Shown here piece after piece: positions 31,677 to 57,373 of a DNA stretch of 64,000 nt. The translations under genes were made by a program, and so were the position numbers. Position 1 is the first letter of the stretch; every line of letters starts with the position of its first letter. The notes beneath the pieces were generated by a model. That model made no database searches and was not told the origin of the DNA. It saw only the letters and a list, made by a program, of their open reading frames with translations. Source of the stretch: Gammaproteobacteria bacterium (GTDB taxonomy: Bacteria; Pseudomonadota; Gammaproteobacteria; Burkholderiales; Burkholderiaceae_B); assembly GCA_030832095.1 (NCBI GenBank), contig JAURJT010000039.1, forward strand, positions 62,001 to 126,000, read 5' to 3'.

Positions 31677-31704
31677 GCTTCACACTCAATTCAAACAAGG
31701 TTTA

Positions 31705-31773
31705 AAGCGTAACCATCAATGATTAAATATTCAAAAAAAAATAATCACCGATGGCTAAACGTTCAAAGCATAA
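31705..31773. repeat. Degenerate repeats after the TRAP-protein gene
   Basis: Minus-strand reading past the TRAP gene stop shows GTTTAGCCATCGGTGATTAT and ATTTAATCATTGATGGTTA-like segments about 30 bases apart, both resembling the gene's own end GTTAACCGTCGTTGATTAT. They look like worn copies of the 3' end plus stop. An A9/T9 run lies between them. Similarity is moderate and judged by eye. Confidence 0.35.
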
Positions 31774-32868
31774 TCAACGACGGTTAACAGCGGCGAAGGT
31801 GTAATTGTCGAGCGTTGCCTCTGCCAAGCGGAACCAACTGGCTTCGCTTTGTTGAAACTTCTGCCACTCAGGGAAAATCGCAGCGAAATCTGGATTCTTG
31901 GCTGACAGTTCTTTCCAGAGTTCTTGCGAGGCCTGATAGGTCGCGTCCATCACATCTTTAGAGAACAGACCGACTTTAGCGCCACCGCCAATTAACTTGC
32001 GCAACGCCTCTGGGTTTTTAGCGTCGTAATTCGCAAGCATCTTGAGCGTTTGTTCGTTGCAGGCAACTTCGAAAGCAGCCTGATACGCGGGTGGCAAGGC
32101 TGCGAACGCTTTGTCATTGACCATCGTCGTAATCGATGCACTACCCTCGAACCAACCAGGCGCATAGTAAAACGGCGCAACTTTATTCAAACCAAGTTTT
32201 TCGTCATCATATGGACCAATCCATTCCGCTGCATCAATCGTCCCTTTTTCTAGAGAAGAATAAATATCAGACGGAGGGATTTGCTGCGGAACAGCCCCAA
32301 GTTTTGAAAGCACCATACCGCCAATGCCACCAATACGAATTTTTAAACCTTGCAGATCAGCGACGGACTTGATCTCTTTGCGATACCACCCACCCATCTG
32401 TACACCCACGTTGCCACAGGTGAAGTTAATAATGTTGTACTTTTTGTAGACTGCGCGCACCAACGCCAAACCACCACCGTACATTAACCAGGCATTGTGC
32501 TGTCGCGCATTTAAACCATAGCTCAGACCCGTATCAAATGTCAGTGCGGTATTTTTGCCGATGAAGTATGTGCTTAAGGTGTGGTTACACTCAACTGTGC
32601 CGTTACTGACACCATCCATACTCTGGGGTGCAGGCATGATTTCACCACCTGCAAAGACACGAATTTCAAATTTGCCGTCAGTGAGTTGAGCAACACGTTT
32701 GCCGAGCTCTTCAGCCGAGCCATAAATCGTGTCAAGGCCTTTAGGCCAACTCGTTGACATACGCCATTTGACAGTCGGACTGGTTTGCGCGAAGGCTGGC
32801 GCGCCGATCGCAGCTAAGCCAGCGCCAGCGGCTGTAGCAGTTTTGGTAAGAAAACGACGTCGTTGCAT
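31774..32868 (-). CDS. TRAP transporter substrate-binding protein, Tat-exported
   Basis: A 364-residue periplasmic binding protein of the DctP/TakP type. The N-terminus MQRRRFLTKTATAAGAGLAA carries a twin-arginine motif, cut near AFAQ. The mature start VKWRMSTSWPKGLDTIYGSAEELGKRV is typical of the TakP-like subgroup binding 2-oxo acids or related carboxylates. The WYRKEIKSVADLQGLKIRIGG region contains the ligand-binding arginine. No DctQ/DctM membrane genes lie nearby, so it must use a transporter encoded elsewhere. It sits inside the hydantoinase-molybdenum hydroxylase cluster, so its ligand is probably the substrate of that pathway. Confidence 0.9.
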   Translation of the reverse strand: MQRRRFLTKTATAAGAGLAAIGAPAFAQTSPTVKWRMSTSWPKGLDTIYGSAEELGKRVAQLTDGKFEIRVFAGGEIMPAPQSMDGVSNGTVECNHTLSTYFIGKNTALTFDTGLSYGLNARQHNAWLMYGGGLALVRAVYKKYNIINFTCGNVGVQMGGWYRKEIKSVADLQGLKIRIGGIGGMVLSKLGAVPQQIPPSDIYSSLEKGTIDAAEWIGPYDDEKLGLNKVAPFYYAPGWFEGSASITTMVNDKAFAALPPAYQAAFEVACNEQTLKMLANYDAKNPEALRKLIGGGAKVGLFSKDVMDATYQASQELWKELSAKNPDFAAIFPEWQKFQQSEASWFRLAEATLDNYTFAAVNRR

Positions 32869-32944
32869 GCGAATCCCCTAGAGAGAAGTTAAGTGAGCAT
32901 ACTGATAGGTCAACAAAATATCAACAACTGTACATCTTGCAGCG

Positions 32945-34489
32945 TCAGGGTTTGACGCCGTAACCACCTCCGCCCGGCAAGCCTAGCTCGAGAATATCTC
33001 CCTCGACCATATCGACTACGCCCTTTGGATGTTCAACTGCCTGGCCATTAAGCAAGACATGGCCAGTGCGCCCCGCTTGTCCGCCTTCGATACCTTTAGC
33101 GGGCACGCGTGTTCGTTCTGTTAACAAAGACACGCGCAGGCGACCGGGCCAGCGCGATTGGAATGATACTTTTTGCCCCATACCGCCACGATGGATACCT
33201 TCGCCACCTGAACCTTCGATCAGGCTCTTACAACCAAAGAGCACCGGCGAGAGCATCTCGGCGACTTCGATGGGAGTGTTTGAAATATTGGCCGGAAACC
33301 CCGAAGTCGGTGGACCGTCGCGATCACGCATCGCCCCCATACCGCCATTAAAAAAGAGAATGCTGGAAAACGAGGTGCCAAGTGCAGGATTCACGCCGCG
33401 CATCAACACGGACCACAGCGGCGTGCCACTATCCGCCTGCACACGCTCAGGCATCACTGAAGCGAGCGCCTCAAACACGGCGGCTTGTAGTTGGTGTCCG
33501 ATCAAATGCCTCGCCCCGACCGCGGCCGGCGGCTTTGCGTTCACGATCGTCCCCTCTGGGGCAATCACTTTAAACAAGCGCGTGAAGCCATCGTTATTCG
33601 GGATACCTGGTGACAACAGACATTTAAAGGGATAAATCGTGTATGCGTAGGTGTGATTAAAGGTCTCATTAATTCCAAATCTGACCTGCGCCGTACTGCC
33701 ACTGTAATCCACCGTCACACCTTCGTGACTCACGGTAATCTTGGCTTGAATCCTGATCCGTTCATCCCACCCATCAGACTCGACCGAGCCGTGATAGATG
33801 CCTGGCGGAATTTTTCGCAGCTCGCGCAGCGCTGCGTCTTCAGAGGCCTTGAAGATCGCCCCCGCGATCTCATTGATATCGCTTAAACCATATTCTTGTA
33901 GTAGCTCAACTAAGCGACGCTCGGCGACTCGCAGCGCCCCTACCTGCGCCTCGATATCACCGCGCACTTGTTGCGGCAAACGCACGTTCGCTTCAAGCAT
34001 CTGCATCACCCACGGGTTAAATACCCCAGCTTCGGCAAGCTTGATCACTGGAAACCGAATCCCTTCTTCGTACACTTCGCCGGCGTCCGCAGACCACTGA
34101 CGACCACCCACATCCGACAAATGTGCCACTGCCATCGCGAACGCCACTAAGCGGTCACCAAAAAAGATGGGCGCGACCATCGTGGCATCGGGCAAATGGC
34201 CTGTGCCAATCCAAGGGTCGTTGGTAAACAGAATATCGCCCGGTTTCAAAGACTCTTGGGGAAACACTTTCAAGATCCCTTTGAGAGACAAAGGCGCTGT
34301 TCCGATAAAGCCGGGGATACTGAGAGCCGACTGCGCGACTAACCGCGCTTCGGGATCGAGGAGCACGCAGGCAAAATCGTTCGACTCTCGTACGACTGTT
34401 GAGAACGAGGTCCGTTTAAGTGTTGCCCCCGCCTCGTCGGTAATCGCGATCAGTCTGTTCCAGTAAATCTCAAGATCAATCGGGCTCAT
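32945..34489 (-). CDS. hyuB: Hydantoinase B/oxoprolinase family subunit
   Basis: The B subunit of an ATP-dependent N-methylhydantoinase/5-oxoprolinase-type enzyme that opens cyclic amides or imides. It begins DLEIYWNRLIAITDEAGATLKRTSFSTVVRE and contains TNDPWIGTGHLPDATMV, VDYSGSTAQV and the GSGGEGIHRGGMGQ region, all standard. I start at ATG 34489, which has AGGAG six bases upstream; the longer frame to 34624 overlaps hyuA and is non-conserved. It follows hyuA by 109 bases. Length 514 is normal. Related subunits also form acetone and acetophenone carboxylases, so ring opening is not the only possibility. Confidence 0.9.
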   Translation of the reverse strand: MSPIDLEIYWNRLIAITDEAGATLKRTSFSTVVRESNDFACVLLDPEARLVAQSALSIPGFIGTAPLSLKGILKVFPQESLKPGDILFTNDPWIGTGHLPDATMVAPIFFGDRLVAFAMAVAHLSDVGGRQWSADAGEVYEEGIRFPVIKLAEAGVFNPWVMQMLEANVRLPQQVRGDIEAQVGALRVAERRLVELLQEYGLSDINEIAGAIFKASEDAALRELRKIPPGIYHGSVESDGWDERIRIQAKITVSHEGVTVDYSGSTAQVRFGINETFNHTYAYTIYPFKCLLSPGIPNNDGFTRLFKVIAPEGTIVNAKPPAAVGARHLIGHQLQAAVFEALASVMPERVQADSGTPLWSVLMRGVNPALGTSFSSILFFNGGMGAMRDRDGPPTSGFPANISNTPIEVAEMLSPVLFGCKSLIEGSGGEGIHRGGMGQKVSFQSRWPGRLRVSLLTERTRVPAKGIEGGQAGRTGHVLLNGQAVEHPKGVVDMVEGDILELGLPGGGGYGVKP

Positions 34490-34598
34490 GCCAGACTCCT
34501 TCGCTGATTCATGCGAGCGTCGCGACTCGACGCAGGTTGGGCATTTATTGGTTTCAGACAAACCTCTTTTGGCATTGCATGCCAGTGCTCTGTTTGTT

Positions 34599-36725
34599 TC
34601 ATGCTGCACGACCTTGGCGGGCACCGAGAGTGATTCTTAGATTACCGTGAGCATCTAACGTAAACACGTCGCCTGGGCCAATCACCACAGTCGAACCGGG
34701 TTGTTCAACCAAAGCGGGCCCTTCGTAACGCTGCTCTGCACGCAACTGCTCGAGCGACAGCACCGGTGTTTGAATAAATCCCTCGATATCCGGAAAAAAC
34801 ACCTGACGCGAACGCTCGGCCTGTGGGGGCTGGCCGGCTGGCGCTTGTGACGAACGCACTTCGGCACCGAGTGCAGCATTCGCTGAGGCCTCAACTCGCC
34901 AGTTGACAGCCTCAACCCGCTGTCCGACCAGTTTTCCGCCAAAGCGGGCTGCGTACGCCTGAGCGAACGACGCCTCGATGGTGCTCTGTTCAGTCTGCAG
35001 CAACTTCGCGGGTAACTCAGTCTCGACCTCAAACCCTTGGCCGACATAGCGCATATCCGCGCTGCGACGAAACGCGATCAGGTCTCGCGTAACGCCCGCC
35101 GAAGCCAATTCTTGACTCAAGGCATCTTCCATCCCTTGCAATAAGGCGTCGATCGCAGGCCAGTCCATCTCGCTTAAGCGTGCATAGCGTGTGCGAACCA
35201 TGTCCATTTTCATTGGCGCGACCAACAACCCAAAGGCGGAAAACACGCCCGCGTTGGCTGGCACCAATAAATCAGAGCAACCACTGCGGCGTGCGACTTC
35301 GCGTGCGTGAATCGGGCCTGCGCCACCAAAGGCGAGCAAGGTATAGCGTCGAATGTCGCGCCCATTCTCGACCGCGTGAATTTTGGCGGCCACTGCCATG
35401 TGTTCGCAAACAATCCGATGAATCCCGTTGGCCGCTTCGACAATACTCAAACCCAACGGGCGAGCAATATGTTCTTCGATCGCCTGTTCAGCTAAGTCCA
35501 GACGCAAACTCACGGCGCCGCTTAACGTACCTTGTGGATCCAGATATCCCAATACCAGCGCCGCATCGGTCACCGTGGGGCGAGTTCCGCCCAAGCCATA
35601 ACACGCAGGCCCAGGACTTGAGCCTGCGCTCTGCGGGCCGACTTTCAACAAGCCTGTCGTATCAACGTGAGCGATACTGCCTCCGCCTGCACCGATCTCA
35701 ATCAGGTCGATCGTGGGCAAACGAACCGGCAGCCCGCTACCTTTTTTAAACCGTTGTTGACGCGCTGCTTCAAACTCTGTCGTAATCGACGGCCGTCCAT
35801 TCGAAATTAAACAGGCTTTGGCAGTGGTGCCCCCCATATCAAAGGCCATCACGTTCGGAGTCTTTGACACGCGGGCAGAATGCGCCGCGCCCAAGGCACC
35901 AGCTGCGGGCCCCGATTCAAGCATACGAATCGGCATACGCTCACCAAGTTCGCGAGAAATGACACCACCGTTTGACTGCATGATGTGCAAGGTCGCGTTC
36001 AACCCGATTGCCCGTAAGCCGTCTTCAATCGCCCCTAAATAACTGCCAACCATGGGCATAACACAGGCGTTGAGCACCGTCGCAACGGTACGCTCGTATT
36101 CACGAATTTCACCTAACACTTCAGACGACAGCGAAATCGACAGCTCGGGCGCGATCCGTTGTGCGATCGCTTTCACACGCTGTTCGTGAGCGGGGTTAGT
36201 AAAGCTATGCAAAAAGCACACTGCAATCGCACGTACTCCAGCTGCACGTAATTGATTCACGACTTGCTCGACCTCTTGGTCTTGCATAGCAATCACGACT
36301 TGCCCCGCAGCATCTACCCGCTCGCGGACTTCGGCACGTAAGGCACGCGGTACGATCGCATCAGGCCCTGGTGCCGTCAAGTCATACAGGTCGTAGCGCA
36401 ACTCGCGTGCGATTTCGATCACATCACGAAACCCTTCGGTTGTGATTAAGCCGGTGACAGCACCCTTGCGCTCAATCACAAGGTTAGTGACCGCGGTCGT
36501 CGCCCCCACCACCACATCGGTCACTTGCGAAAGGGTCAGACCATGCTCTTTTAGCAAAGCCAGCAAGCCCAAACGAATGGGCATCACAACATCGGGCGCA
36601 CCGGTCAGAACCTTTGAGGTGAAGATAGTGCCATCAGTACCGAGCAACACCAAATCAGTGAAGGTGCCGCCGATATCAAACGCAAAACGATACTGCTGGC
36701 TAGAAACTAATGCCTGAGCACTCAT
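34599..36725 (-). CDS. hyuA: Hydantoinase A/oxoprolinase family ATP-dependent subunit
   Basis: The 708-residue ATP-binding subunit that pairs with HyuB. ASKHA-fold phosphate loops are visible in RFAFDIGGTFTDLVLLG and VMAFDMGGTTAKACLI; EIGAGGGSIAHVD and GPGPACYGLGGTRPTVTDA-like segments follow. It phosphorylates the cyclic amide/imide (or a ketone in carboxylase relatives) at the expense of ATP. The start is two bases after the preA-like stop, so the two are translationally linked. This linkage to a ring-reducing flavoenzyme is a main reason to propose heterocycle catabolism for the cluster. Confidence 0.92.
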   Translation of the reverse strand: MSAQALVSSQQYRFAFDIGGTFTDLVLLGTDGTIFTSKVLTGAPDVVMPIRLGLLALLKEHGLTLSQVTDVVVGATTAVTNLVIERKGAVTGLITTEGFRDVIEIARELRYDLYDLTAPGPDAIVPRALRAEVRERVDAAGQVVIAMQDQEVEQVVNQLRAAGVRAIAVCFLHSFTNPAHEQRVKAIAQRIAPELSISLSSEVLGEIREYERTVATVLNACVMPMVGSYLGAIEDGLRAIGLNATLHIMQSNGGVISRELGERMPIRMLESGPAAGALGAAHSARVSKTPNVMAFDMGGTTAKACLISNGRPSITTEFEAARQQRFKKGSGLPVRLPTIDLIEIGAGGGSIAHVDTTGLLKVGPQSAGSSPGPACYGLGGTRPTVTDAALVLGYLDPQGTLSGAVSLRLDLAEQAIEEHIARPLGLSIVEAANGIHRIVCEHMAVAAKIHAVENGRDIRRYTLLAFGGAGPIHAREVARRSGCSDLLVPANAGVFSAFGLLVAPMKMDMVRTRYARLSEMDWPAIDALLQGMEDALSQELASAGVTRDLIAFRRSADMRYVGQGFEVETELPAKLLQTEQSTIEASFAQAYAARFGGKLVGQRVEAVNWRVEASANAALGAEVRSSQAPAGQPPQAERSRQVFFPDIEGFIQTPVLSLEQLRAEQRYEGPALVEQPGSTVVIGPGDVFTLDAHGNLRITLGARQGRAA

Positions 36726-36727
36726 GC

Positions 36728-38044
36728 TTAGCCCTTAACTTTTGAAAGCTTAATGCCGCGTTCAAAGCCTTTTTCGAATTTCTTAGACTCAAACACATTG
36801 TCTTTAATCGAGAAGAACTCTTGTAACGCGCGCTGCTCTTCGGTGGTCGTGTGCATCGTAGTGGCATCAAATGGGCAGGTTTGCGTGCACATTTCACAAC
36901 CGATACAGTTGGCATGTATCGATTCGACTGAGCCGTCACCCTGCGCCAAGGCATCGTAAAAACAGGTTTGAATACAAATCGTGCAAGTTGGATTTTTACA
37001 AGCCTCAGAGGCAATTTCACTATGCATGCGGGGCTTGCGAAATTGCTCGCCATAGTCCTTCACCGCTGCGCGCGAAGCAATGCCCGTCATGGATGCGATA
37101 TCTGGATAACCATGACTATCCATAAAGCTATCGAGCCCAGTGATCATGCTAGGCAAGTACTTGATTCCCTTGAGCATCAACACCGAGCCCACCTGTACGA
37201 GCGGCGCACCCGTCATGATGAACTCGACGATATCTTTGTGATCGTAAATACCGTTCGAACCCGTAATCGGCATCCCAAGCTCGGTATAGATCCGATTCAC
37301 CCAGCGAAGTGATAAAGCTTTTGCCCATACCCCACCGATTCCGGCTGGCCCGCCCAAGCGTGGCAAACCAGTTTCAATGTCAACCGAAAAACCGGTGTAA
37401 CGATTCGTGGCGGTCACACCCGCCGCACCCGCCTCTTTCACAGCGCGTGCAACATCCAACACGCGCGATTGATCAGGCGTGAGTTTGATCACCACAGGGA
37501 TCTTGACGGCCTCGCAGACGCGCGCAGTCACCTCGCGCGCAATCTCAGGCTCTTGCCCGATCATCGAGCCGCCATGCACGCCAGGCATCATGGCAGGATG
37601 CGGGCAGCCAAAGTTAAGCTCAACCATGGGCAAGCCACAATCTTCGATCGTACGGCAAATATCGATCCAGCTTTGCATGGTTTTGCCACCGGCACTACCG
37701 ATCAAATGAGAGCCCTGATCTTGCGCGTACTTGTTCAAGTCTTTTAGGTGCGGAATCCATTCGCGCAGAGGCGTACTTGAGTATCCCGAACGGCTATAGA
37801 ACACAAAGTTCTTGTTGACCTTACCTTTAATCAGTTCATTCTTTTCATTCAAAATTGCGTACTTTGAATTTTGCGTCAAGCGCGCCATGTCCTCGATATC
37901 GGTGAGGGTTTTAATGATCATGCCACCCGCACCTGCGTCCACACACTCACGAATCACTTCTGGACTATTGGTTGTTTCGAGCGATGCAATCACCACCGGA
38001 TTTTTAAATTTAACGCCACAAAAATCTAAAGAGAGATCAGCCAC
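36728..38044 (-). CDS. PreA-like dihydropyrimidine dehydrogenase-type Fe-S flavoprotein
   Basis: A 438-residue protein with a dihydroorotate dehydrogenase-like FMN barrel (residues 1-330) and a C-terminal ferredoxin domain with two [4Fe-4S] motifs, CKNPTCTICIQTC and CIGCEMCTQTC. It matches PreA, the catalytic half of bacterial dihydropyrimidine dehydrogenase. The active-site Cys is kept in NFGCPHPAM, but the following substrate loop (PGVHGGSMIGQ) departs from that of uracil-reducing PreA. The NADH-oxidising partner PreT is not in the window, so another electron donor is needed. GTG start with GGGGTAA upstream. It is the first enzyme gene after the MarR regulator. Confidence 0.88.
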   Translation of the reverse strand: MADLSLDFCGVKFKNPVVIASLETTNSPEVIRECVDAGAGGMIIKTLTDIEDMARLTQNSKYAILNEKNELIKGKVNKNFVFYSRSGYSSTPLREWIPHLKDLNKYAQDQGSHLIGSAGGKTMQSWIDICRTIEDCGLPMVELNFGCPHPAMMPGVHGGSMIGQEPEIAREVTARVCEAVKIPVVIKLTPDQSRVLDVARAVKEAGAAGVTATNRYTGFSVDIETGLPRLGGPAGIGGVWAKALSLRWVNRIYTELGMPITGSNGIYDHKDIVEFIMTGAPLVQVGSVLMLKGIKYLPSMITGLDSFMDSHGYPDIASMTGIASRAAVKDYGEQFRKPRMHSEIASEACKNPTCTICIQTCFYDALAQGDGSVESIHANCIGCEMCTQTCPFDATTMHTTTEEQRALQEFFSIKDNVFESKKFEKGFERGIKLSKVKG

Positions 38045-38103
38045 GCGTTACCCCTAAATTAAGCGAATTGAATAGATTAAATAAATGAAAAACGTTCGAG
38101 ATC

Positions 38104-38718
38104 TCAAGGCGCCCCCACACGTCGTCCACGCGCCTTTAACGCTTCGCCGCCCGGCCGCAACGAGGTTCGGCCATTTTCATTATTGCCCTCGACCAGTCGT
38201 CCGAGAAGCTCCATGAACACCCGTCGATCGGCAGGATTGAGCGGGCTGAGCAATTGCTGTTGCGACAACTGCATATCTTTTTGATAGCGCTGTACGAATT
38301 TTTTGCCGTCTGGCGTGGCCAAACATAATTTACGCCGGCGGTTCTGCGGATCGACGACTCGGGTGAGCAGGTTACGGTCTTCAAGGCGCCTAAGAATCTC
38401 TGCAACGTTGGCTGGATCGAGTCCAAGCTCAGCACCAAGGGTGGCCTGATCGATACCTGGGCGGCGGATCAAAATACTCAGTAAGCCAAACTGCACAGGC
38501 GTGACTTGCCCATCTGCCACGCGGGCCGAAAACATCGCCACATGAATTTGATGCAACCTGCGTACCAAATAACCAGGGCGATCCCAAATCGTGTGGTTAG
38601 TTGTTGAGGAGCTGGCGGTTACGTTGGACACCGTCGGCACGACCACCAAAGCGGGCTGCCTGCGCACGGCAGGTTTGGGCCCTAACTTGGTTGGCACAGC
38701 AGGCACATTTTTACGCAC
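38104..38718 (-). CDS. MarR family transcriptional regulator
   Basis: A 204-residue winged-helix regulator. Residues about 45-60 form the dimerisation helix (GYLVRRLHQIHVAMFSARV), followed by TPVQFGLLSIL, the recognition region DQATLGAELGLDPANVAEILRRLEDRNLL and the wing VDPQNRRRKLCLATPDG. The 40-residue N-terminal arm is longer than usual and basic. GTG start with GAGG eight bases before. It is the first gene of the leftward catabolic run, 59 bases before preA-like, and is likely to control it in response to an aromatic or heterocyclic ligand. Paired repeats just upstream look like its operator. Confidence 0.9.
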   Translation of the reverse strand: MRKNVPAVPTKLGPKPAVRRQPALVVVPTVSNVTASSSTTNHTIWDRPGYLVRRLHQIHVAMFSARVADGQVTPVQFGLLSILIRRPGIDQATLGAELGLDPANVAEILRRLEDRNLLTRVVDPQNRRRKLCLATPDGKKFVQRYQKDMQLSQQQLLSPLNPADRRVFMELLGRLVEGNNENGRTSLRPGGEALKARGRRVGAP

Positions 38719-38833: not shown

Positions 38834-40108
38834 TTACAGCAAACTATCGGCCCAAATATTACGCGCCCAGCCCCAGGCATAGACGCCTTCTAACTCACTG
38901 GGGGCCGCCGACACGCCGCCCGAACCCGCGGCAGTTTTATACGTCTTGTCTGGCGCACTGTACTGATGAACGCTGGCCACATGTACGACTTTTGTGGCAT
39001 CGACAAAGCTATAGCAAGTGTTGTTTAAAACCGGCTGAGGGTTAAGGGCAAACCCTCGTAACTCAGCCACAATAGCGGCCGCAGCGACCTTAGCATGCTG
39101 ATTTGCCATGTGCGCCGACTTGGGCATAAACGCGGCGTTTTGTGTCGAATCCCCCAAAATATGGATATCTTTGGCCGCCGTTGATTCGAAATTCAAAAAA
39201 TTTACCTGCGCCCAGCGTTTATTTGAGTTCGCTAAGCCCGCTTGCACAATTAACTCAGCCGCACGCATGCGTGGCAAAACATTTAACACGTCAGCCTGGA
39301 CTGAGTCTTGAATATCGAAGCGAAGCGTCTTGGTCGCAGCCTCGACTCTGACCAGATTATGCGATGCGCGATATTCAATCATGCCCGGGTACAAATCGGC
39401 CCAAGCCTTCTTAAACAAGCCGGGCTTTGACACGACGTCTTCGTTCGCATCGAGAATCAAGACCTTAGATTTAGGTTTATGCTTTTTAAAATATGCGGCA
39501 ACTTGGCAAGCTCGCTCATACGGGCCGGGCGGGCATCTAAAGGGCGCCTCTGGAATGCTCAGCGCAAACACGCCACCGTCTGGCATGTCATGTAGTTGCT
39601 TCTGTAATCTAAGCGTTTCGGACCCGGCTTTCCAGGCCTGCAGTGTCACCCCCGCTTGATTCGCCTGCACCAAGCCTTCAATGCTGTCCATCATCAGGCC
39701 GATGCCTGGCGACAACACTAATTTATCGTAATTCAGAGTCGTGCCAGAGTGTAATTGCACAACCTTTTTAAACGGCTCAATCGCAGTCACCCAGTCGCGC
39801 ACCAACGAGACACCGTGCCGCTTTTGCAACGCATCGTACGAAACGGTCAACTCAGGCAGCGTGCTTGACCCCCCCAGTACCAGGTTAGAAAGAGGGCAAG
39901 ACACGAACGACAACTCGGGTTCAATCAAGGTGACGTTTGCAGTGCCCTCAGACCAAAGGCGAAGATATTTTGCCGCCGTCGCCCCGCCATAGCCGGCCCC
40001 AACCACCAGCACTCGAGCCGCCTTCAAATCGGCACGCACAACAGCAGGAAACGCTAGGCTAGCAGCCAACAGAGCTCCGGTGCGATGTAAAAACTGACGA
40101 CGCTTCAT
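38834..40108 (-). CDS. soxF: Sulfide dehydrogenase-type flavoprotein (SoxF/FccB)
   Basis: A 424-residue periplasmic FAD protein of the flavocytochrome c sulfide dehydrogenase family. A twin-arginine signal (MKRRQFLHRTGALLAASLA) precedes the FAD motif ARVLVVGAGYGGATAAKYL. The redox cysteines expected in the family are seen in VSCPLSNLVLGG and FRCPPGPYERACQVA, and the C-terminal FCSD-flavin-binding domain contains NTCYSFVD. It would oxidise sulfide or a persulfide and pass electrons to cytochrome c. No FccA cytochrome follows. It is the last gene of the sox run, 24 bases after soxA. Confidence 0.88.
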   Translation of the reverse strand: MKRRQFLHRTGALLAASLAFPAVVRADLKAARVLVVGAGYGGATAAKYLRLWSEGTANVTLIEPELSFVSCPLSNLVLGGSSTLPELTVSYDALQKRHGVSLVRDWVTAIEPFKKVVQLHSGTTLNYDKLVLSPGIGLMMDSIEGLVQANQAGVTLQAWKAGSETLRLQKQLHDMPDGGVFALSIPEAPFRCPPGPYERACQVAAYFKKHKPKSKVLILDANEDVVSKPGLFKKAWADLYPGMIEYRASHNLVRVEAATKTLRFDIQDSVQADVLNVLPRMRAAELIVQAGLANSNKRWAQVNFLNFESTAAKDIHILGDSTQNAAFMPKSAHMANQHAKVAAAAIVAELRGFALNPQPVLNNTCYSFVDATKVVHVASVHQYSAPDKTYKTAAGSGGVSAAPSELEGVYAWGWARNIWADSLL

Positions 40109-40132: not shown

Positions 40133-40957
40133 CTAGGGGCGAACGCCTGGGCTTTCGAGCAGCATGGCGCGTGCACGCCAAGCTAAAAACAATTCAAGCT
40201 CAAGCAACTCGGTCGAGCCAAACGCAAAAGGCTCTGCGCGAACCCCGACCAGACAATTACGCAAGCGTCGCTCGAGCGAACCAACCGCCTGCCATTCAAG
40301 CCGGTAGATTGGATACGCTGTTGGATGCGCCTGAGGAATCGGATTACCTGCAAGTTTTTGCCCAGCGCGCTCGGCATGGCATTGAGCACAAGAGAGGTTT
40401 AACTGGCCCATGCGCTGATTAAACAAGCGTTGGCCTGAGGCAAGTGCCGACTCATTAGCCGGCGTGCGTTCAACAGTGATCGGCATGCCTTTAGACTGGT
40501 TGGCGACAAAAGCCGAAAGTGCCAGCAATGGCTTGCTCTCAAAAGCAAAGGGCGTTGCGCCTTGGTGCTCGATGCGACACTGATTGATGCGCCCCGAAAG
40601 GCTGAGTAACTGACCCGCAGCGTTGAACTTAGGGAAGCTGGCTGCAATACCTTTCATCGATACCGTAGCATCACCATGACACGAGGCACAAGATTGATTT
40701 TTTTTACCCGCGATCTCTTGCCATAAAACCTGGCCGTCTAACACTGCAAACGTGGCCGGGTTTAAAAGAGGATCATCCTGCATTGCCTTGGTGTCAGGCG
40801 ACATCAAGGCATAACTTGATTGACGCTCAGCCCCAACTGGATCAGCTTGCGACGAGGTGTGGAAGGGCAGCAAAATAGCGAGCGAAAAAAGAATAGCTAG
40901 CGACACCCGCTTTTCAAGCAGACAAGACAAAAAAACTTGCCACACCCAAGGCATCAC
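40133..40957 (-). CDS. soxA: Sulfur-oxidation c-type cytochrome SoxA, diheme
   Basis: A 274-residue periplasmic cytochrome with a hydrophobic leader, then two heme-binding CxxCH motifs (CASCH and CAQCH), so this is the diheme form. The active-site cysteine that is modified to cysteine persulfide is in LRNCLVGVRAEP; the matching first-domain cysteine is in INQCRIEH. With SoxX it joins the sulfur substrate to the SoxY cysteine. Its start overlaps the soxZ stop by four bases (ATGA). Confidence 0.92.
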   Translation of the reverse strand: MMPWVWQVFLSCLLEKRVSLAILFSLAILLPFHTSSQADPVGAERQSSYALMSPDTKAMQDDPLLNPATFAVLDGQVLWQEIAGKKNQSCASCHGDATVSMKGIAASFPKFNAAGQLLSLSGRINQCRIEHQGATPFAFESKPLLALSAFVANQSKGMPITVERTPANESALASGQRLFNQRMGQLNLSCAQCHAERAGQKLAGNPIPQAHPTAYPIYRLEWQAVGSLERRLRNCLVGVRAEPFAFGSTELLELELFLAWRARAMLLESPGVRP

Positions 40958-41283
40958 GTCACTGTGAGCGTACTGGTTGTACTCGAAGCGTAGCCGTTAT
41001 CTCCAGACCACTTGAACTCTAGTGTGCCGCTTTCGGTCGCAGTAGTCGTAAACACAATCAACGGATTCGCACCCATAGCCGGGTGCAACTCGACACGAAA
41101 CACTTCAACACCGTTATAGGTACAACGGAAATCGCGAATGATATCGCGAGGAATCCGTTGACCCGTCTCTGTGTGCCGAAAACCAGACTCCATATCATGT
41201 TGCACAATGATACGGATCTCAAGAATTTCGCCTTTTTTAGCCGTCGCGGGCATCGTGACAATCGTACGAGAGGTCTTGCTCAC
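40954..41283 (-). CDS. soxZ: Thiosulfate oxidation carrier subunit SoxZ
   Basis: A 109-residue immunoglobulin-like protein that forms the SoxYZ carrier. GEILEIRIIVQHDMESGFRH, IPRDIIRDFRCTYNGVEVFRVELHPAMGANP and FKWSGDNGY are family marks. The GTG at 41283, just after the soxY stop and preceded by GAGG, is the likely start; the ORF can be extended to 41307 but that would overlap soxY. It has no signal peptide and is exported as a complex with SoxY, whose twin-arginine signal serves both. Confidence 0.9.
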   Translation of the reverse strand: MSKTSRTIVTMPATAKKGEILEIRIIVQHDMESGFRHTETGQRIPRDIIRDFRCTYNGVEVFRVELHPAMGANPLIVFTTTATESGTLEFKWSGDNGYASSTTSTLTVT

Positions 41284-41284: not shown

Positions 41285-41728
41285 TTACACCTCAGTGCAG
41301 GCTGCAAGCGTCACTAGGGTCGCTGCGTCACCTTGCCAAAAAGAACCATCACTCAATTGCGCGATTGCCCGCACGCGCTGCGAATCTCCCAACCGGATGC
41401 GGGTGGTCACTGCCGCGCGCCCCGAACGAGGCGACAAGAAAAAGCTCACCACATTGGGCAAGGGATTGCCCTCAGCCACGATATGAACGGCTCGCACGTA
41501 ATCTGCTTCGGTCATCGGGCTTTGCACAGACACCTTCATGGTAACCAGATTACCGTTCTCAACCAGTGGCGGAATTTCGAGCGTCACGCGACCGACCTGT
41601 GCCGAGCGACCACCCAAAATTTTGTCAACGGCTTGTGTGGCATCATCGACCGTCGCAAACGCATTCAATGTTGGCAACACGCTGGCGGCTGCCGCACTTA
41701 TCACAAAGGTTCTTCGAGTGACTGTCAC
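41285..41728 (-). CDS. soxY: Sulfur carrier protein SoxY with atypical C-terminus
   Basis: A 147-residue protein with a twin-arginine signal (TVTRRTFVISAAAASVLP) and the SoxY fold (VTLEIPPLVENGNLVTMKVSV; NPLPNVVSFFLSP). In thiosulfate-oxidising SoxY the chain ends in GGCGG, whose cysteine swings between enzymes. Here the end reads LVTLAACTEV: a cysteine is kept near the end, but the flexible glycines are absent and three residues follow it. The DNA shows no frameshift there. It overlaps soxX by four bases and soxZ starts one base after its stop. Carrier function is likely, but partner recognition probably differs from the classical pathway. Confidence 0.87.
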   Translation of the reverse strand: MTVTRRTFVISAAAASVLPTLNAFATVDDATQAVDKILGGRSAQVGRVTLEIPPLVENGNLVTMKVSVQSPMTEADYVRAVHIVAEGNPLPNVVSFFLSPRSGRAAVTTRIRLGDSQRVRAIAQLSDGSFWQGDAATLVTLAACTEV

Positions 41729-42165
41729 GGTTTTAAGCTCACTAAAAAAGCTACAACGTCTTCGATGTCTTGCGCCGTCAAGATTGCTTTACCTGCAAAC
41801 TGCGGTGCAATCCGCGTAAAACCCTCCGCACGAAAATAAGAGGGCATGATGGTATTTGGATTAAAGCGACTCGCATCGACAATGCGAGCACGCAACTGCT
41901 CTGCCGACAAGGCTGCCGAACTAGCCGCCAAATCTGGGGCAAGCGTGCCCTGAAAACGTTCTTCAGGAAACGGCCCGCTATGACACAGTATGCATAAACC
42001 GCCCTGACGGCTCAACACCAGAGCGCGCCCGCGTACTGTATCCCCCGGTTGCCCCGACAATGAAGCGTTGATCGCATCACCGACAAAGACCTGCGCTTGC
42101 AGGGGGCTGAGGCAGGCAAGCCAGAAACTGGCCACTAACGCCCACCCAGCACCCCATTTGGTCAT
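41725..42165 (-). CDS. soxX: Sulfur-oxidation c-type cytochrome SoxX
   Basis: A 146-residue monoheme cytochrome with a cleavable signal (to LQAQ), heme motif CILCH, and the IMPSYF methionine ligand region followed by TAQDIEDVVAFLVSL at the C-terminus, as in SoxX. It pairs with SoxA. Its ATG overlaps the TGA of the upstream iorB-like gene by four bases, tying the sox genes to the molybdenum hydroxylase genes. The soxB, soxC and soxD genes are not present on either side. Confidence 0.9.
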   Translation of the reverse strand: MTKWGAGWALVASFWLACLSPLQAQVFVGDAINASLSGQPGDTVRGRALVLSRQGGLCILCHSGPFPEERFQGTLAPDLAASSAALSAEQLRARIVDASRFNPNTIMPSYFRAEGFTRIAPQFAGKAILTAQDIEDVVAFLVSLKP

Positions 42166-44351
42166 ACCAAAGTCATACCACTATTTTTCAAAGGCACATC
42201 ACGCAAACGCTTACCCGTTGCACGATAAATCGCATTGAGCACGGCGGGTGCCGCCACACAAATCGTGGGTTCGCCAATACCGCCCCAGTCTTTGCCACCG
42301 CCCTCAATAATAATGGTTTCGACTTTAGGCATTTGCGCAAGACGAATCGAGCCAAACGTATCGAAGTTTTTCTGTTCAATGCGGCCGTCTTTCACGGTGC
42401 ACTCTTCTTCAAACAACGCCGACAATCCGTACACAAACGAGCCAGAGACTTGACGCTGAATTTGAGCCGGGTTCACGGCGTAGCCGCAATCCGTTGCTGC
42501 CACGATACGATGAATCTTGACCTTAGTACCGTCGGTCACAGAGAGTTCGCACGCAGCGGCCACGTAACTGCCAAACGCCGTCATCTGGGCAATACCTCGA
42601 AAAACTCCGGGAGCAGCAGGTTTTGTCCAACCAATGCCTGCAGCGGCGGCGTTGAGCACCGCAAGATTGCGGGGAAACTTGCCCATAAACTTACGACGAA
42701 ACTCAACCGGATCTACACCAGCAGTTTCAGCAAGTTCATCCATGAAACATTCGATGAACACCGCGTTTTGATTCACGTTCACACCACGCCAAAAACCTGG
42801 TGGCACGTGCGTGTTGCGCATCGCATGGTCCATCAACTGATTCGGAAACTCGTAACCGAAGGCATGCTCGCCGCCGTCAAACACGCCTTGAAAAACCAAG
42901 GGATCACGGCCTTTTTGTTGCGCTACGACTGCAGGGCGCACCGCCGCCAGGATCGACTGACCCGACAAGCGCATGTGCACGCCGGTCAAGTTTTTATCCT
43001 TATCAAACGAGCCTGTCAGCTTACACATCATGACTGGGTGGTAACGCCCTTGGGTCATGTCTTCTTCGCGCGTCCAGATCAATTTGATCGGGGTACCAGG
43101 CATTTGCTTAGCGATATTGACAGCCTGCGTGGTGTAGTCTTGAAACGCACCACGACGACCAAAACCGCCACCCAGATTAATTTTGTAAACCTCGCACTTC
43201 TCAGCGGGCAAACCTGAGGCCGCAATGACAGCAGCCAATGAGGCCTCACCGTCTTGCGTTGGCACCCAAGCGTCGCAACGTTCTGGCGTCCACTTCGCCG
43301 TGGCGTTCATGGGCTCCATGGGGGCGTGATTCAAGAACGGATAGAAATAAGTCGCCTCGGTCTTGTTGACGGCCGCGGTGATCGCAGCTTTAGTGTCACC
43401 ACGCGTGTTGCCAACGAAAGCCTGCTCTGCAGTCAAGCCCTCTACGAGCGTCTTAGCGATCGACGCGCTTGACACAGTTGCATTTGGGCCCTCGTCCCAC
43501 ACAATTGCAACCTGATCGAGGGCTGTTTTGGCAATCCAGAACGTCTCGGCCACAACAGCAACGGCGGTTTCACCCACCTTCATAACCTTCTTAACGCCCT
43601 TCATGGCGGTCACTTTGCTGTCATCAAAGCTTTTAACCTTGCCGCCAAAAACGGGGCACTCTTTGATGGTGGCTACCATTAGGCCAGGCATCGTTAAATC
43701 CATACCGTAAACCTGCTTGCCCGTCACCTTATCGGCAAAGGTGTCGATACGGTTCATAGACTTACCGATGATCTTCCACTCTTTGGGGTCTTTGAGCGTG
43801 ATCTCGGTGGGGACAGCAATCTTTGAGGCCGCCTCAGCCACTTTGCCAAACGATACTTTGCGGCCAGTTGGCTTGTGGGTGATGACGCTTTCAGCGGCCA
43901 CGCACTCTGCGACGGGGACTTTCCACTCGTCGGCAGCAGCTTGCACCAACATCATGCGGGCGGCGGCGCCGCCTTTACGAACATACTGTTCTGAGGTACG
44001 AATACCGCGACTACCGCCGGTTGAAAAATCACCCCATATACGCTTGCGCTTGAGGCTTTCACCGGGCGTTGGATATTCAACCGTGACCTTGCTCCAGGCA
44101 CACTCAAGCTCTTCGGCCACCATCTGTGCCAAGCCAGTAATCGTGCCCTGCCCCATCTCTGAGCGCACGACACGCACGATGACAGTGTCATCGGGCTTGA
44201 TCACGACCCAAGCGCCGATTTCTGGGGTTGACTCTGCTGCAAGCGCTGAGCCCATAAAAGGAATTTGCAAACCAAGTGCCAGTCCACTACTGACGGCGGT
44301 GGTACCTACAATAAACTGACGACGTGAAGGATTCGGGACGCGTGCGTTCAT
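42162..44351 (-). CDS. Isoquinoline 1-oxidoreductase-like molybdopterin subunit (IorB type), copy 1
   Basis: A 729-residue molybdenum hydroxylase large subunit of the IorB branch, in which the catalytic subunit is exported through Tat: PNPSRRQFIVGTTAVSSGLALG. Marks include VRSEMGQGTITGLAQMVAEELE, STGGSRGIR, VPTQDGEASLA, INLGGGFGRRG and the C-terminal active-site region WGGIGEPTICVAAPAV with the catalytic Glu. I start at the ATG at 44351 with AAGGGG upstream. Family members hydroxylate N-heteroaromatics or oxidise aldehydes in the periplasm. It is followed directly by soxX (ATGA overlap). Its small subunit is the gene just upstream. Confidence 0.9.
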   Translation of the reverse strand: MNARVPNPSRRQFIVGTTAVSSGLALGLQIPFMGSALAAESTPEIGAWVVIKPDDTVIVRVVRSEMGQGTITGLAQMVAEELECAWSKVTVEYPTPGESLKRKRIWGDFSTGGSRGIRTSEQYVRKGGAAARMMLVQAAADEWKVPVAECVAAESVITHKPTGRKVSFGKVAEAASKIAVPTEITLKDPKEWKIIGKSMNRIDTFADKVTGKQVYGMDLTMPGLMVATIKECPVFGGKVKSFDDSKVTAMKGVKKVMKVGETAVAVVAETFWIAKTALDQVAIVWDEGPNATVSSASIAKTLVEGLTAEQAFVGNTRGDTKAAITAAVNKTEATYFYPFLNHAPMEPMNATAKWTPERCDAWVPTQDGEASLAAVIAASGLPAEKCEVYKINLGGGFGRRGAFQDYTTQAVNIAKQMPGTPIKLIWTREEDMTQGRYHPVMMCKLTGSFDKDKNLTGVHMRLSGQSILAAVRPAVVAQQKGRDPLVFQGVFDGGEHAFGYEFPNQLMDHAMRNTHVPPGFWRGVNVNQNAVFIECFMDELAETAGVDPVEFRRKFMGKFPRNLAVLNAAAAGIGWTKPAAPGVFRGIAQMTAFGSYVAAACELSVTDGTKVKIHRIVAATDCGYAVNPAQIQRQVSGSFVYGLSALFEEECTVKDGRIEQKNFDTFGSIRLAQMPKVETIIIEGGGKDWGGIGEPTICVAAPAVLNAIYRATGKRLRDVPLKNSGMTLV

Positions 44352-44361: not shown

Positions 44362-44814
44362 TTAAGCTTTAGCGACTGAGTGAATGGCGGCGCGAACTTC
44401 TTGAAAGCTGCCGCAGCGACAAATATTTGTGATGGCCGCATCAATATCGGCATCAGTAGGTTTAGGTTTTTTAGCCAGCAAATCAGTGGCTGCCATCAAC
44501 ATACCTGACTGACAAAAACCACATTGCGGCACTTGATGATCGATCCAAGCCTGTTGCAGTTGGGTCAGTTTGCCATCTTTGGCCAGGCCTTCAATTGTTT
44601 GAATTTGTTTGCCTACGGCGGCACTCACAGGCAGGACGCACGAACGAATGGCTGCACCGTCCATCATGATGGTACAGGCGCCACATTGAGCAATACCGCA
44701 ACCGTATTTGGTACCGGTCAGGCCGACCTGCTCTCGAATGACCCACAAGAGTGGGGTATTTGGATCGACATCCACGCTATGCGCTTTGCCGTTTACGGTC
44801 AACTGAATCGCCAT
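44362..44814 (-). CDS. IorA-type [2Fe-2S] subunit, copy 1
   Basis: A 150-residue small subunit with the plant-type cluster (GTKYGCGIAQCGACTIMM and a later Cys in AAIRSC) and the second cluster (VPQCGFCQSGM and NICRCGSF). It passes electrons from the molybdenum site, normally onward to a cytochrome c in this branch. AGGAG lies seven bases before the ATG. The 120-bp spacer to the upstream iorB copy is long enough for an internal promoter, but none is convincing. It is closely similar to the copy at 47.2-47.7 kb. Confidence 0.92.
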   Translation of the reverse strand: MAIQLTVNGKAHSVDVDPNTPLLWVIREQVGLTGTKYGCGIAQCGACTIMMDGAAIRSCVLPVSAAVGKQIQTIEGLAKDGKLTQLQQAWIDHQVPQCGFCQSGMLMAATDLLAKKPKPTDADIDAAITNICRCGSFQEVRAAIHSVAKA

Positions 44815-44934: not shown

Positions 44935-47181
44935 TTACGCTAAGGTCAAACCATGCTTGCGCAAGGGCAAATCTCTTGCGGGTTTACCCGTAGCCGCAAA
45001 GATCGCATTCAAGACTGCAGGCCCGACAACACAGATGGTGGGCTCTCCGACACCGCCCCAGAAATCATAGGAAGGCACCAACACGCACTCGACCTTGGGC
45101 GTATCTTTAAGTTTGGCTAAGGGGTACGAGTGGTAGTTGTTTTCTTTGACTTGCCCGTTTTCAATCGTAATGTCTTCATTAAAAATTGCAGACAACGCCA
45201 TCACAACTGACCCCTCAATCTGCGCTTTCACCTGCGAAGGGTTCACAAAGTGACCCGAATTCAAAGCAAACACCATGCGATGAACTTTGACCTGACCACT
45301 AGGCGACACCGACACCTCAGCCGTTGCCGCCGAGTAGCTGCCATAGCCCATGAACTGCGCAATGCCGCGATGCTGTCCTGCCGGTAGCGGCTTACCCCAA
45401 TCACCTTTCTGCGCCACCGCATCCAAGACAGCAAGGTGTTTAGGATGGTTTTTCATCAGATCACGACGAAACGCCAGTGAGTCGCGACTGGCCGCACGCG
45501 CGCACTCTTCAATGAAGCATTCCATGTAAATACCGTTTTGATTGGTATTCACTCCACGCCACGGGCCAACAGGCACATGACTGTTACGCATCACGTACTC
45601 GGTTAAGAGCGACGGAAAGGTGTAACCCAATTGCGCATCGCCCGGCGCATCATAAAATCCTTGCAGCTGCCTCACATCTTTATTGTTTTTAATGGCTGAC
45701 GGGTTTAAGTAGGCATTGATCGACTGACCAGAGACGCGGATATGAAATCCCGTCAAATTACCTTTGTCATCAAGGCCAGCTGACATCTTGGCCATCGAAA
45801 TCGGGCGAAAGAAGTCGTGCGTCATATCCTCTTCGCGACTCCAAACCATCTTGATCGGAATGTTTGGATATTGCTTGGCAATCGCCACGGCGTGATGCAT
45901 AAAATCTTGTGTACCGCCGCGTCGCCCGAGCCCACCGCCCAAGTCCATGGTCTTGATGTCACAATTTGCCAAAGGCAGACCTGAAGCTTCAGACAGCGCG
46001 GCCATCGAGGCTTCGGCGTTTTGCGTCGGCACCCAAGCGTAGGCACGATCACCACTAAGCTGCACAACGCAATTCATCGGCTCCATCGTGGCATGAGCCA
46101 AATACTGACTGCTATACACCGCTTCGACCGTTTTGGCTGAGGCTTTAATGGCGGCTAGTGCGTCGCCTTCTTTACGCTGCCAATAGTCGCCTTCAGCGCC
46201 TAAGCCGTCTTTCAAGGCCGCTGCAATTGTCGTACTCGAGACCTTTGCGTTTGGACCCAAATCCCAATCGATCGGAAGATTGTCTAAGGCGTTTTTTGCA
46301 CGCCACCAGGTGTCAGCCACCACAGCCACAGTTGAGTCATTGACTTTGACCACACCTTTCACACCGCGCATGGCTTTGACCTTTGATTCATCAAAGCCCA
46401 CGAGCTTGCCGCCAAACACTGGGCAGCTTTTGACTGCTGCGCATAACATTCCTGGCAGACGTAGGTCGATACTAAAGACCTTGGCACCGTTCACCTTATC
46501 TGCGCTATCTAACCGCGCAACCGCAGTCCCTGCAATCTTCCAGTCTTGAGGCTTTTTCAAAACAATCGATTTTGCTTCGGGGGGCGTGAGCTTTGCCGCC
46601 GCATCAGCGACCTTGCCGTAGCTCACGGTACGTTTTGTCTGGGCATGCGTGATGACGCCTTGGCTGACCATTAATTCGGACACAGGCACTTTGAACTGCT
46701 CAGCCGCCGCTTGCAAAAGCATCAACCGCGCCGCAGCACCACCGCGGCGCACATAGTCGTGCGAATCACGAATACCCCGGCTACCGCCGGTCGCCATCGC
46801 ACCCCAAGCACGCTTGCGGGCTAAATTTTGCCCTGCGGAAGGCGCTTCATAGGTGACTTTTTTCCAGTCACAGTCAAGCTCTTCGGCAACCAACTGAGCT
46901 AGGCCTGTACGTGTGCCCTGACCCATCTCAGAACGAACGATACGAATCACCACGGTGTCGTCGGGCTTGATCACGACCCACAAATTCACCTCGTCGGCAG
47001 TCAACGCCGGCGCAGTGGTTTGTGCCAAGGCCGGACGCGAGTTCATCAACCCGAGCGCCAGACCCGCGCCAACCGTGGCGGTACCGATCAAAAACTGTCG
47101 ACGAGCCGGGTGTAAAGGAGCGTTGCTTAAACGCTTGACATTGCGTGTTGCGCCCAAGGACTTACTGATACGATTTGTCAT
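44935..47181 (-). CDS. Isoquinoline 1-oxidoreductase-like molybdopterin subunit (IorB type), copy 2
   Basis: A 748-residue paralogue of the neighbouring large subunit, with a twin-arginine signal HPARRQFLIGTATVGAGLALG cut near ALAQ. It keeps VRSEMGQGTRTGLAQLVAEELD, ATGGSRGIRDSHDYVRRGGAAARL, VPTQNAEASMAALSEASGLP, MDLGGGLGRRGG and the end WGGVGEPTICVVGPAV. Parallel order iorA-iorB-iorA-iorB shows a module duplication followed by strong divergence in the mid-region, so the copies probably have different substrates. It starts eleven bases after its small-subunit stop. Confidence 0.9.
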   Translation of the reverse strand: MTNRISKSLGATRNVKRLSNAPLHPARRQFLIGTATVGAGLALGLMNSRPALAQTTAPALTADEVNLWVVIKPDDTVVIRIVRSEMGQGTRTGLAQLVAEELDCDWKKVTYEAPSAGQNLARKRAWGAMATGGSRGIRDSHDYVRRGGAAARLMLLQAAAEQFKVPVSELMVSQGVITHAQTKRTVSYGKVADAAAKLTPPEAKSIVLKKPQDWKIAGTAVARLDSADKVNGAKVFSIDLRLPGMLCAAVKSCPVFGGKLVGFDESKVKAMRGVKGVVKVNDSTVAVVADTWWRAKNALDNLPIDWDLGPNAKVSSTTIAAALKDGLGAEGDYWQRKEGDALAAIKASAKTVEAVYSSQYLAHATMEPMNCVVQLSGDRAYAWVPTQNAEASMAALSEASGLPLANCDIKTMDLGGGLGRRGGTQDFMHHAVAIAKQYPNIPIKMVWSREEDMTHDFFRPISMAKMSAGLDDKGNLTGFHIRVSGQSINAYLNPSAIKNNKDVRQLQGFYDAPGDAQLGYTFPSLLTEYVMRNSHVPVGPWRGVNTNQNGIYMECFIEECARAASRDSLAFRRDLMKNHPKHLAVLDAVAQKGDWGKPLPAGQHRGIAQFMGYGSYSAATAEVSVSPSGQVKVHRMVFALNSGHFVNPSQVKAQIEGSVVMALSAIFNEDITIENGQVKENNYHSYPLAKLKDTPKVECVLVPSYDFWGGVGEPTICVVGPAVLNAIFAATGKPARDLPLRKHGLTLA

Positions 47182-47192: not shown

Positions 47193-47690
47193 TTATGCTT
47201 TAGCGATGCCAGCTGTGGCGTAATCTTTTAAAACGTCGGCTAGTTGCTTTTGACCCGCCGCGACATGGATACCGTCGCGGATGCGCTGATAAGTGCCGCA
47301 GCGACAGATATTCGTCATCGCCGCGTCAATATCAGCGTCGGTGGGTTTGGGCACGCGCTTAAGTAAGGCAACAGCGGCCATCACCTGGCCCGACTGACAG
47401 TAGCCACACTGAGGGATATCAAGTGCGATCCAAGCTTGCTGGACAGCATGGCTGGAGTCTTTAGACAGCCCTTCGACGGTGGTGATCATCTGACCGGCAG
47501 CGCTCGCCACCGGAATCGAGCACGAGCGCACCAATTCACCGTTTAGTTGCACAGAACAGGCGCCACACTGTGCAACACCACAACCATATTTGGTGCCGGT
47601 CAAACCGAGCACTTCTCGCAGCGCCCACAACAAAGGCATATCGGGTTCAACGTCGATCTTGTGAACGGTGCCGTTTACTTTGAGTTCCAT
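47193..47690 (-). CDS. IorA-type [2Fe-2S] subunit, copy 2
   Basis: A 165-residue small subunit: cluster one in [20 protein letters not shown] plus RSC, cluster two in [11 protein letters not shown] and NICRCGTY. It has a C-terminal extension of about 15 residues ([18 protein letters not shown]) absent from copy 1. It is the first gene of the nine-gene leftward run that ends with soxF. The 207-bp spacer upstream should contain the main promoter; I do not see a strong consensus there. Confidence 0.92.
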
Positions 47691-54958: not shown

Positions 54959-55183
54959 CTAGGCGGCACGCGTTGCCCATCAGTCGGCACGAACAACTGC
55001 AGCGGGAAGCGCTTCATTAGGGGGCAACAAGTTCGATTGAAAAATTCGATTGAAGTTAATCCCGCAAGTATAACGACCAACGCTCACCGAAACTACTCTT
55101 AGCCTCGTAAGTTGCTCTGGTTTGGCGATTTTGCTGCGATAATGATGGATTCAAAGTATTGTTGCACCGCAACAAATGATGTG

Positions 55184-57358: not shown

Positions 57359-57373
57359 TCACAGGAAATTGTT

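Follow-up and report, generated by a model that had tools for sequence, protein, structure and literature searches.

What does it mean that a molybdenum hydroxylase gene runs directly into a sulfur oxidation gene? In the 64,000-nucleotide stretch of DNA analysed here (the window), the stop codon of an IorB-like subunit gene had been reported to overlap the start of soxX, and reading the sequence directly between 42000 and 42400 bears this out: on the minus strand iorB2 ends ATG ACT TTG GTA TGA and soxX begins ATG ACC AAA TGG, such that the ATGA at 42162–42165 is common to both. The accompanying layout of nine co-directional genes with small gaps (iorA-iorB-iorA-iorB-soxX-Y-Z-A-F) likewise stands, with successive gaps of 11, 120, 10, −4, −4, 1, −4, and 24 nt, computed using an iorB2 start at 44351 and a soxZ start at 41283. 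No clear Shine-Dalgarno sequence was seen by eye before the soxX ATG, which fits translational coupling of soxX. The overlap alone is ordinary, as 4-nt overlaps occur at four of the 16 junctions of the longer same-strand run. Counts of promoter-like sites (6 versus 6.1 expected) and terminator-like sites (19 versus 13.4 expected) are uninformative.

Gene identities were assigned by Pfam and NCBIfam profile scans of the window ORFs, and all genes of the cluster are on the minus strand. The [2Fe-2S] subunits of the first and second hydroxylases are encoded by iorA1 (47193..47690; Fer2_2 1e-27, Fer2 4.9e-09) and iorA2 (44362..44814; Fer2_2 5.1e-27), the latter with conserved cluster cysteines. 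The molybdopterin subunit genes are iorB1 (44935..47181), whose product has a twin-arginine signal and MoCoBD_1/2 domains and belongs to a second Sox-linked sublineage, and iorB2 (42162..44351), with twin-arginine residues R10-R11, a GEP glutamate (E694), and a clade-specific tryptophan (W689). Residue numbers for IorB2 count from the start at 44351, which is likelier than 44453, where the ORF opens. The soxX gene (41725..42165) encodes a monoheme cytochrome c (TIGR04485, 74.9 bits; cut-off 61) and is followed by a divergent soxY, here soxY′ (41285..41728), by soxZ (40954..41283; TIGR04490, 77.4 bits; cut-off 76), which opens as an ORF at 41307 and likely starts at the GTG at 41283, and by soxA (40133..40957; TIGR04484, 213.5 bits; cut-off 110), encoding two CxxCH motifs and a conserved C235. 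The last gene, soxF (38834..40108), encodes a flavocytochrome-c-type sulfide dehydrogenase flavoprotein (FCSD_central 2.8e-43, FCSD-flav_bind 7e-22). By eye, twin-arginine N-termini are present in IorB1, IorB2, SoxY′, and SoxF, and those of SoxX and SoxA are of the secretion type; IorA and SoxZ have no signal and would travel with their partners, IorA1 being a presumed Tat hitchhiker. Neither SoxB nor SoxCD is encoded among the 17 genes scanned between 27117 and 47690.

Downstream of the cluster the minus strand continues (27117–38718) with a marR-type regulator gene (38104..38718; MarR 9.5e-13), which follows the module in near relatives only, and then PreA-like, HyuA, HyuB, DctP, CoxL, CoxM, and CoxS-type genes. 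The nearest model for HyuA/HyuB is caprolactamase (500 and 194 bits, below the cut-offs of 1000), and the ORF at 27117–28346 joins a CoxS-type [2Fe-2S] domain (residues 4–153) to about 250 residues that appear CoxG-type by eye. On the other side of the cluster there are two tandem plus-strand ORFs of cyanophycin synthetase type by eye (55112–59950) and, on the opposite strand to these, an ABC exporter-like gene (52595–54958).

The gene after soxX had been labelled simply as soxY, and this label needs correction. Its product scores 89.0 bits against the true-SoxY model, below the cut-off of 125, and 187.8 bits against TIGR04487 (‘SoxY-related AACIE arm protein’), above the cut-off of 172, and its tail reads AACTEV instead of GGCGG. 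By these profile matches it belongs to the AACIE-arm family of SoxY paralogues, not to the thiosulfate carriers; it has a twin-arginine N-terminus. In an alignment of 33 SoxY′ sequences, made up of that of the window and 32 of the 39 fetched ones, the arm cysteine (C144) is invariant and GGCGG is replaced, typically by an end of the form Cys-x-Glu or Cys-x-Asp; the cysteine is present in all 39 fetched tails. The SoxY′ structure model (pLDDT 86.6) has the SoxY fold, with 2oxg of Paracoccus as its best match.

Is the pairing of hydroxylase and carrier conserved? We compared two sets of loci, one of 40 regions (39 with SoxY′ hits, together with the canonical sox locus of the window genome) and the other of 80 loci from a genome collection, giving 119 SoxY′ loci that are not independent, as L044 and L140 are probably one contig and Polynucleobacter is over-represented. 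Their titles include freshwater Alcaligenaceae and Comamonadaceae bins, Zwartia, Sheuella, Limnohabitans, and many Polynucleobacter, and extend to Reyranella, Bradyrhizobium, Enterovirga, and Rokuibacteriota; none in the 80-locus set is from Starkeya or Ancylobacter. Two bins with the module (L084 and L140) are titled ‘Bordetella parapertussis’, which looks like a misclassification of environmental Burkholderiales.

IorB lies upstream of SoxY′, on the same strand and within 4 kb, in 107 of the 119 loci, and the gene next after IorB is soxX in 79 of these, soxY′ itself in 15, and soxF in 13. Of the 12 loci without the upstream IorB, six have SoxY′ no more than 5 kb from where the stretch begins. 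The exact ATGA overlap of IorB and SoxX is seen again in 19 of the 107 loci, all near relatives (L072–L092), so that the refuting outcome named in the original prediction, a junction not conserved in related genomes, did not occur. Given this count and the 4-nt overlaps at 4/16 junctions, the iorB-soxX overlap was rejected as special evidence for the pairing. No further constant partner was found among 498 neighbouring ORFs, the widest cluster of which, a solute-binding-protein type by eye, is present in 12 of 40 loci. Four loci (L058, L062, L067, and L069, with L062 near a contig edge) have SoxXY′ZA without an adjoining IorB; their genomes (G293, G349, G131, and G169) hold an IorB of the Sox-linked kind elsewhere, and one such separate copy in G131 (L190) falls in the IorB1 sublineage.

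Co-occurrence was counted in 399 genomes of the order, including that of the window, with thresholds of E <= 1e-180 for IorB and at least 96 bits for SoxY′. IorB of the Sox-linked kind is present in 75 genomes and SoxY′ in 70; 66 have both, nine IorB alone, four SoxY′ alone, and 320 neither (Fisher p 3.6e-60, indicative only as the genomes are related). Two of the nine with IorB alone (G125 and G198) have a weaker SoxY′ hit directly after IorB. At most two IorB candidates were scored per genome, further copies being left out, and of the 89 hits so obtained 63 are followed by SoxY′ no more than 4.5 kb away on the same strand; 19 of the other 26 are in genomes with SoxY′ elsewhere and seven in genomes without it. 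In a sample across the phylum, SoxY′ (E <= 1e-30) is present in 32 of 398 genomes. Chance adjacency of IorAB and Sox is rejected by these linkage (107/119) and co-occurrence (66/9/4/320) counts, which uphold the earlier view of hydroxylase and Sox genes as one unit. The molybdenum hydroxylase–SoxY′ module looks like a real conserved gene unit in many freshwater and soil bacteria.

The hydroxylase itself belongs to a dedicated lineage. IorA has two [2Fe-2S] domains, and IorB has MoCoBD domains, a Tat signal, and the GEP glutamate, as expected of the IorAB type; E694 of IorB2 is presumably the catalytic glutamate, as judged by this motif. An XdhC-type maturation protein is encoded in all 36 module genomes examined. 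In a tree of 93 IorB sequences (frames longer than 620 aa only, with 22 from the 80-locus set, and linkage scored by stop-to-stop distance), one branch of 67 rows (SH-aLRT 100) contains 64 that are SoxY′-linked and three that are not, the latter from genomes with SoxY′ elsewhere (G143, G131, and G263); outside it there are 25 unlinked IorBs and one linked (L209). The linked rows were sampled through SoxY′, which makes the 399-genome count the fairer test of pairing. At fifteen IorB positions conservation reaches 97% or more within the branch and does not exceed 25% elsewhere; among them are W689 (five residues before E694), E369, and M511-R512-N513, and several of the fifteen are predicted from sequence motifs to lie near the molybdenum-binding loops. 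The AlphaFold model of IorB2 (pLDDT 85.0) has chain C of 8gy3 as its nearest fold (TM 0.83, 26% identity). A specific Tat-signal IorAB lineage is thus tied computationally to SoxY′ and SoxZ, usually to SoxXA, and sometimes to SoxF.

IorB1 and IorB2 of the window represent two sublineages that in other loci occur singly, one or the other preceding soxXYZA; iorB1 belongs to a set of 13 tree rows, ten SoxY′-linked and three unlinked. In the window both sublineages share a single set of carrier genes, suggesting either that there are two substrates or that two steps follow one another. Such doubling is recurrent, as two IorAB pairs or two IorBs also surround one SoxXY′ZA set at L037 and L055, beyond the near relatives of the window. 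A second, independent IorAB–SoxY′ pairing may exist at L209 (contig C51 of G143), where SoxY′Z adjoins an IorAB that falls outside the main branch and a TRAP-type binding protein is also encoded.

SoxXA retains its cofactor motifs within the module. All 103 SoxA sequences (scores above 150, the window's included) have two CxxCH motifs, with C235, which we take to be the heme-ligating catalytic cysteine, and C127 conserved in at least 97%; the SoxX heme motif is present in 102 of 103. In 15 of the 107 clusters IorB is followed by SoxY′Z and SoxX and SoxA hits are absent from the locus, so that not every cluster could be loaded by a SoxXA encoded in cis; SoxA is present somewhere in the genome in all 36 module genomes examined. 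In one IorB subclade SoxXA is missing from the locus in all ten rows, and SoxY′ there ends Cys-Gly, and in the subclade of the window's IorB2 SoxA is in the locus in 35 of 40 rows, one of the five without it (L081) ending at a contig edge.

The window genome also encodes SoxB (a single hit), SoxA, true SoxY, and SoxC on another contig (C17), apart from the module. Among the 36 module genomes, SoxB is over its cut-off in 29, SoxA in 36, true SoxY in 34, and SoxC in 23. SoxB over the cut-off is commoner in genomes with SoxY′ (51 of 70) than in the other genomes of the order (134 of 329; p 1.3e-6), with SoxB negatives called by eye and two of them (G368 and G393) being incomplete genomes. SoxB is below its cut-off in 19 of the 70 SoxY′ genomes, including all seven of one genus (g21), and in one genome that is 99% complete and 5% contaminated (G140) no SoxB was found and the only SoxA and SoxY′ are those of the module, such that hand-off to a canonical Sox system is not obligatory. 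The module often accompanies thiosulfate oxidation genes and does not need them.

A role other than in thiosulfate oxidation is suggested by two published systems. In Starkeya novella, a second sox cluster (Snov_1982-1977) lies with a molybdenum enzyme (Snov_1975/1976) in what the authors regard as one operon; it includes no SoxB or SoxCD, and a complete canonical Sox set is encoded elsewhere (PMC3797975). According to the available part of that report, the SoxAX and SoxYZ proteins of the second cluster were undetected and its transcripts very low on thiosulfate, methanol, and glucose, one SoxF subunit was present at a low level except on glucose, and the authors considered that these Sox proteins may have no function or may act under other growth conditions. 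In Bradyrhizobium diazoefficiens, soxY1 is essential for thiosulfate oxidation and soxY2, which is a candidate member only of the SoxY′ family, is not, as stated in the accessible text (PMC5748708).

We tentatively favour, at well below an even chance, the explanation that the module is a second, dedicated Sox-type carrier system in which SoxXA attaches an organic thiol to SoxY′ and the carbon of the bound group is oxidised by IorAB. We infer each step, from SoxXA loading to sulfur removal. SoxXA would oxidatively attach an organic sulfur compound with a thiol group to SoxY′, forming a mixed disulfide with Cys144, and the carrier would present the bound compound to IorAB, which would hydroxylate the carbon adjoining the sulfur using oxygen from water. 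Collapse of the resulting hemithioacetal would yield an aldehyde (or, further on, an acid) and a carrier persulfide, from which SoxF or other sulfur enzymes of the cell would take the sulfur. The proposal draws on the joint conservation of a C–H hydroxylase, SoxXA with its cysteines, and the arm cysteine, on the cluster being without SoxB and SoxCD, and on the very low expression on thiosulfate in the available account of the S. novella counterpart; SoxB being below its cut-off in seven of the 36 module genomes also counts for it. Clusters without SoxXA, the aldehyde dehydrogenase kinship of IorB, and the excess of SoxB count against it: the nearest solved relative fits aldehyde oxidation without sulfur chemistry, and the greater frequency of SoxB is also compatible with involvement in the oxidation of inorganic sulfur. 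We know of no IorAB enzyme acting on a protein-bound substrate.

An alternative is that IorAB acts on a free sulfur compound such as a heterocycle or thio-aldehyde, with SoxXA and SoxY′Z then accepting the released sulfur. The sulfur-heterocycle reading in the original prediction is of this kind, and it is possible, in that the run of MarR, PreA-like, HyuA, HyuB, DctP, and CoxL/M/S genes in the window and its near relatives makes a plausible ring-degrading set. However, PreA/HyuAB follow the module in only six of the 80 loci (L072, L074, L075, L083, L084, and L085, all near relatives; some contigs end too early for a decision), and they are absent from the loci of Polynucleobacter and of Alphaproteobacteria. 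The flanking PreA, HyuA/HyuB, DctP, and CoxLMS genes may point to a substrate peculiar to this lineage, for example a sulfur heterocycle; as an account of the module, action on a free substrate is unlikely, since it leaves unexplained why a special SoxY′ lineage tracks with a special IorB lineage.

Alternatively, SoxY′ could carry an aldehyde (as a hemithioacetal oxidised to a thioester) or be a thiol redox helper of IorAB, with no sulfur oxidation taking place. Oxidative formation of S–S bonds needs SoxA and aldehyde oxidation does not, and in the subclade of the window's IorB2 SoxA is encoded at 35 of the 40 loci and retains its heme motifs and cysteines, which makes this alternative rather unlikely, as does SoxF, which also fits sulfur chemistry. 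In its favour are the closeness of IorB to the membrane-bound aldehyde dehydrogenase of Gluconobacter (TM 0.83), the ten of ten rows without SoxXA in the subclade whose SoxY′ ends Cys-Gly, and the comparable carriers beside quinoprotein alcohol dehydrogenases, SoxYZ-like carriers being known in a quinoprotein gene cluster from the accessible part of one report (PMC12997753).

That IorAB takes the place of SoxCD, serving inorganic sulfur oxidation as the sulfane dehydrogenase, is improbable. SoxCD is a periplasmic molybdenum enzyme, as IorAB is, the module is without SoxCD, and SoxB is commoner with SoxY′ (51/70 versus 134/329, p 1.3e-6). Against this, SoxC is already over its cut-off in 23 of the 36 module genomes, including the window's, SoxB is below its cut-off in 19 of the 70 SoxY′ genomes, and enzymes of the xanthine oxidase family are known for C–H hydroxylation; the second S. 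novella cluster was also barely expressed with thiosulfate in the available text (PMC3797975). The weakest alternative, very improbable, is that SoxXA, as suggested earlier (or SoxXA with SoxY′Z), is a mere electron acceptor of IorAB. In its favour, 30 of the 39 SoxY′ loci of the first set contain no other CxxCH ORF within 6.5 kb of SoxY′. Against it, control IorAB regions are equally short of such ORFs, SoxXA is absent from the locus in 15 of the 107 clusters, and neither SoxY′ nor the cysteines kept in SoxA are given a role. The controls were 30 further IorB regions, of which four (L209, L216, L217, and L218) are SoxY′-linked and 26 have no SoxY′; a same-strand CxxCH ORF is nearby in six of the 26 and absent in 20, so the scarcity of cytochrome c genes was rejected as evidence for an acceptor role.

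If the carrier-bound oxidation of organic sulfur is correct, the module would be a periplasmic protein-carrier assembly line cutting C–S bonds. The broader claim, that there is a widespread Sox branch in which organic sulfur is oxidised while covalently bound to a carrier, with a dedicated hydroxylase attacking the carbon and the sulfur being left on the carrier, is doubtful though possible. What duplicate sox genes do is posed as an open question in the Discussion of the S. novella report, as far as its available text goes (PMC3797975), and the conserved pairing indicates that a particular molybdenum hydroxylase is the partner of one class of them. Annotators can tell this class from the thiosulfate carrier by the IorB tryptophan five residues before the GEP glutamate and by a SoxY′ arm cysteine without GGCGG. 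If the module genes of Polynucleobacter, Bradyrhizobium, and freshwater metagenomes are scored as thiosulfate oxidation genes, inorganic sulfur oxidation could be overestimated and a route for organic sulfur concealed.

The statement in the original prediction that no system with this layout had been described is mistaken, as the S. novella soxX2Y2Z2A2F2 genes with a xanthine-oxidase-family molybdenum enzyme were published in 2013 (PMC3797975, available in part), and the IorAB–Sox layout is thus already reported in one organism. Apart from S. novella, no account of the IorAB–SoxY′ pairing was found in the literature searched, which was largely outside subscription journals, and the accessible portions of PMC3623810 and PMC6382920 hold nothing further on it. 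Both IorAB and a separate flavocytochrome c with SoxYZ are reported from SAR324 genomes, and no link is drawn between them in the available text (PMC4782131). The S. novella and window clusters share SoxXYZA, SoxF, and a xanthine-oxidase-family enzyme in the absence of SoxB and SoxCD, and judging from gene content their proteins probably belong to the same families. By locus numbers the molybdenum enzyme is beside SoxF in S. novella, whereas it is beside SoxX in the window, and only the window has two IorAB pairs and its particular flank.

The module shares SoxXA (with its heme motifs and conserved cysteine), SoxYZ, SoxF, the carrier cysteine, and the SoxY fold with the canonical Sox system of Paracoccus type, but differs in its cluster being without SoxB and SoxCD, in its SoxY′ tail (AACTEV rather than GGCGG), and in having two CxxCH motifs in SoxA rather than the one in the canonical SoxA of the window genome. 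It resembles the quinoprotein-associated SoxYZ-like carriers (TIGR04557) in combining a carrier with a periplasmic oxidoreductase outside thiosulfate oxidation; those are fused SoxYZ proteins with PQQ enzymes in the part of the report available (PMC12997753), whereas the window proteins score only 60.7 and 38.1 against a cut-off of 140. Isoquinoline 1-oxidoreductase IorAB and the membrane-bound aldehyde dehydrogenase of Gluconobacter (8gy3) have the same IorA/IorB layout, MoCoBD domains, GEP glutamate, and twin-arginine signal on the molybdenum subunit; the window IorB differs from them in its 26% identity to 8gy3, in having Trp and Glu at positions at which other IorBs have different residues, and in being tied to SoxY′.
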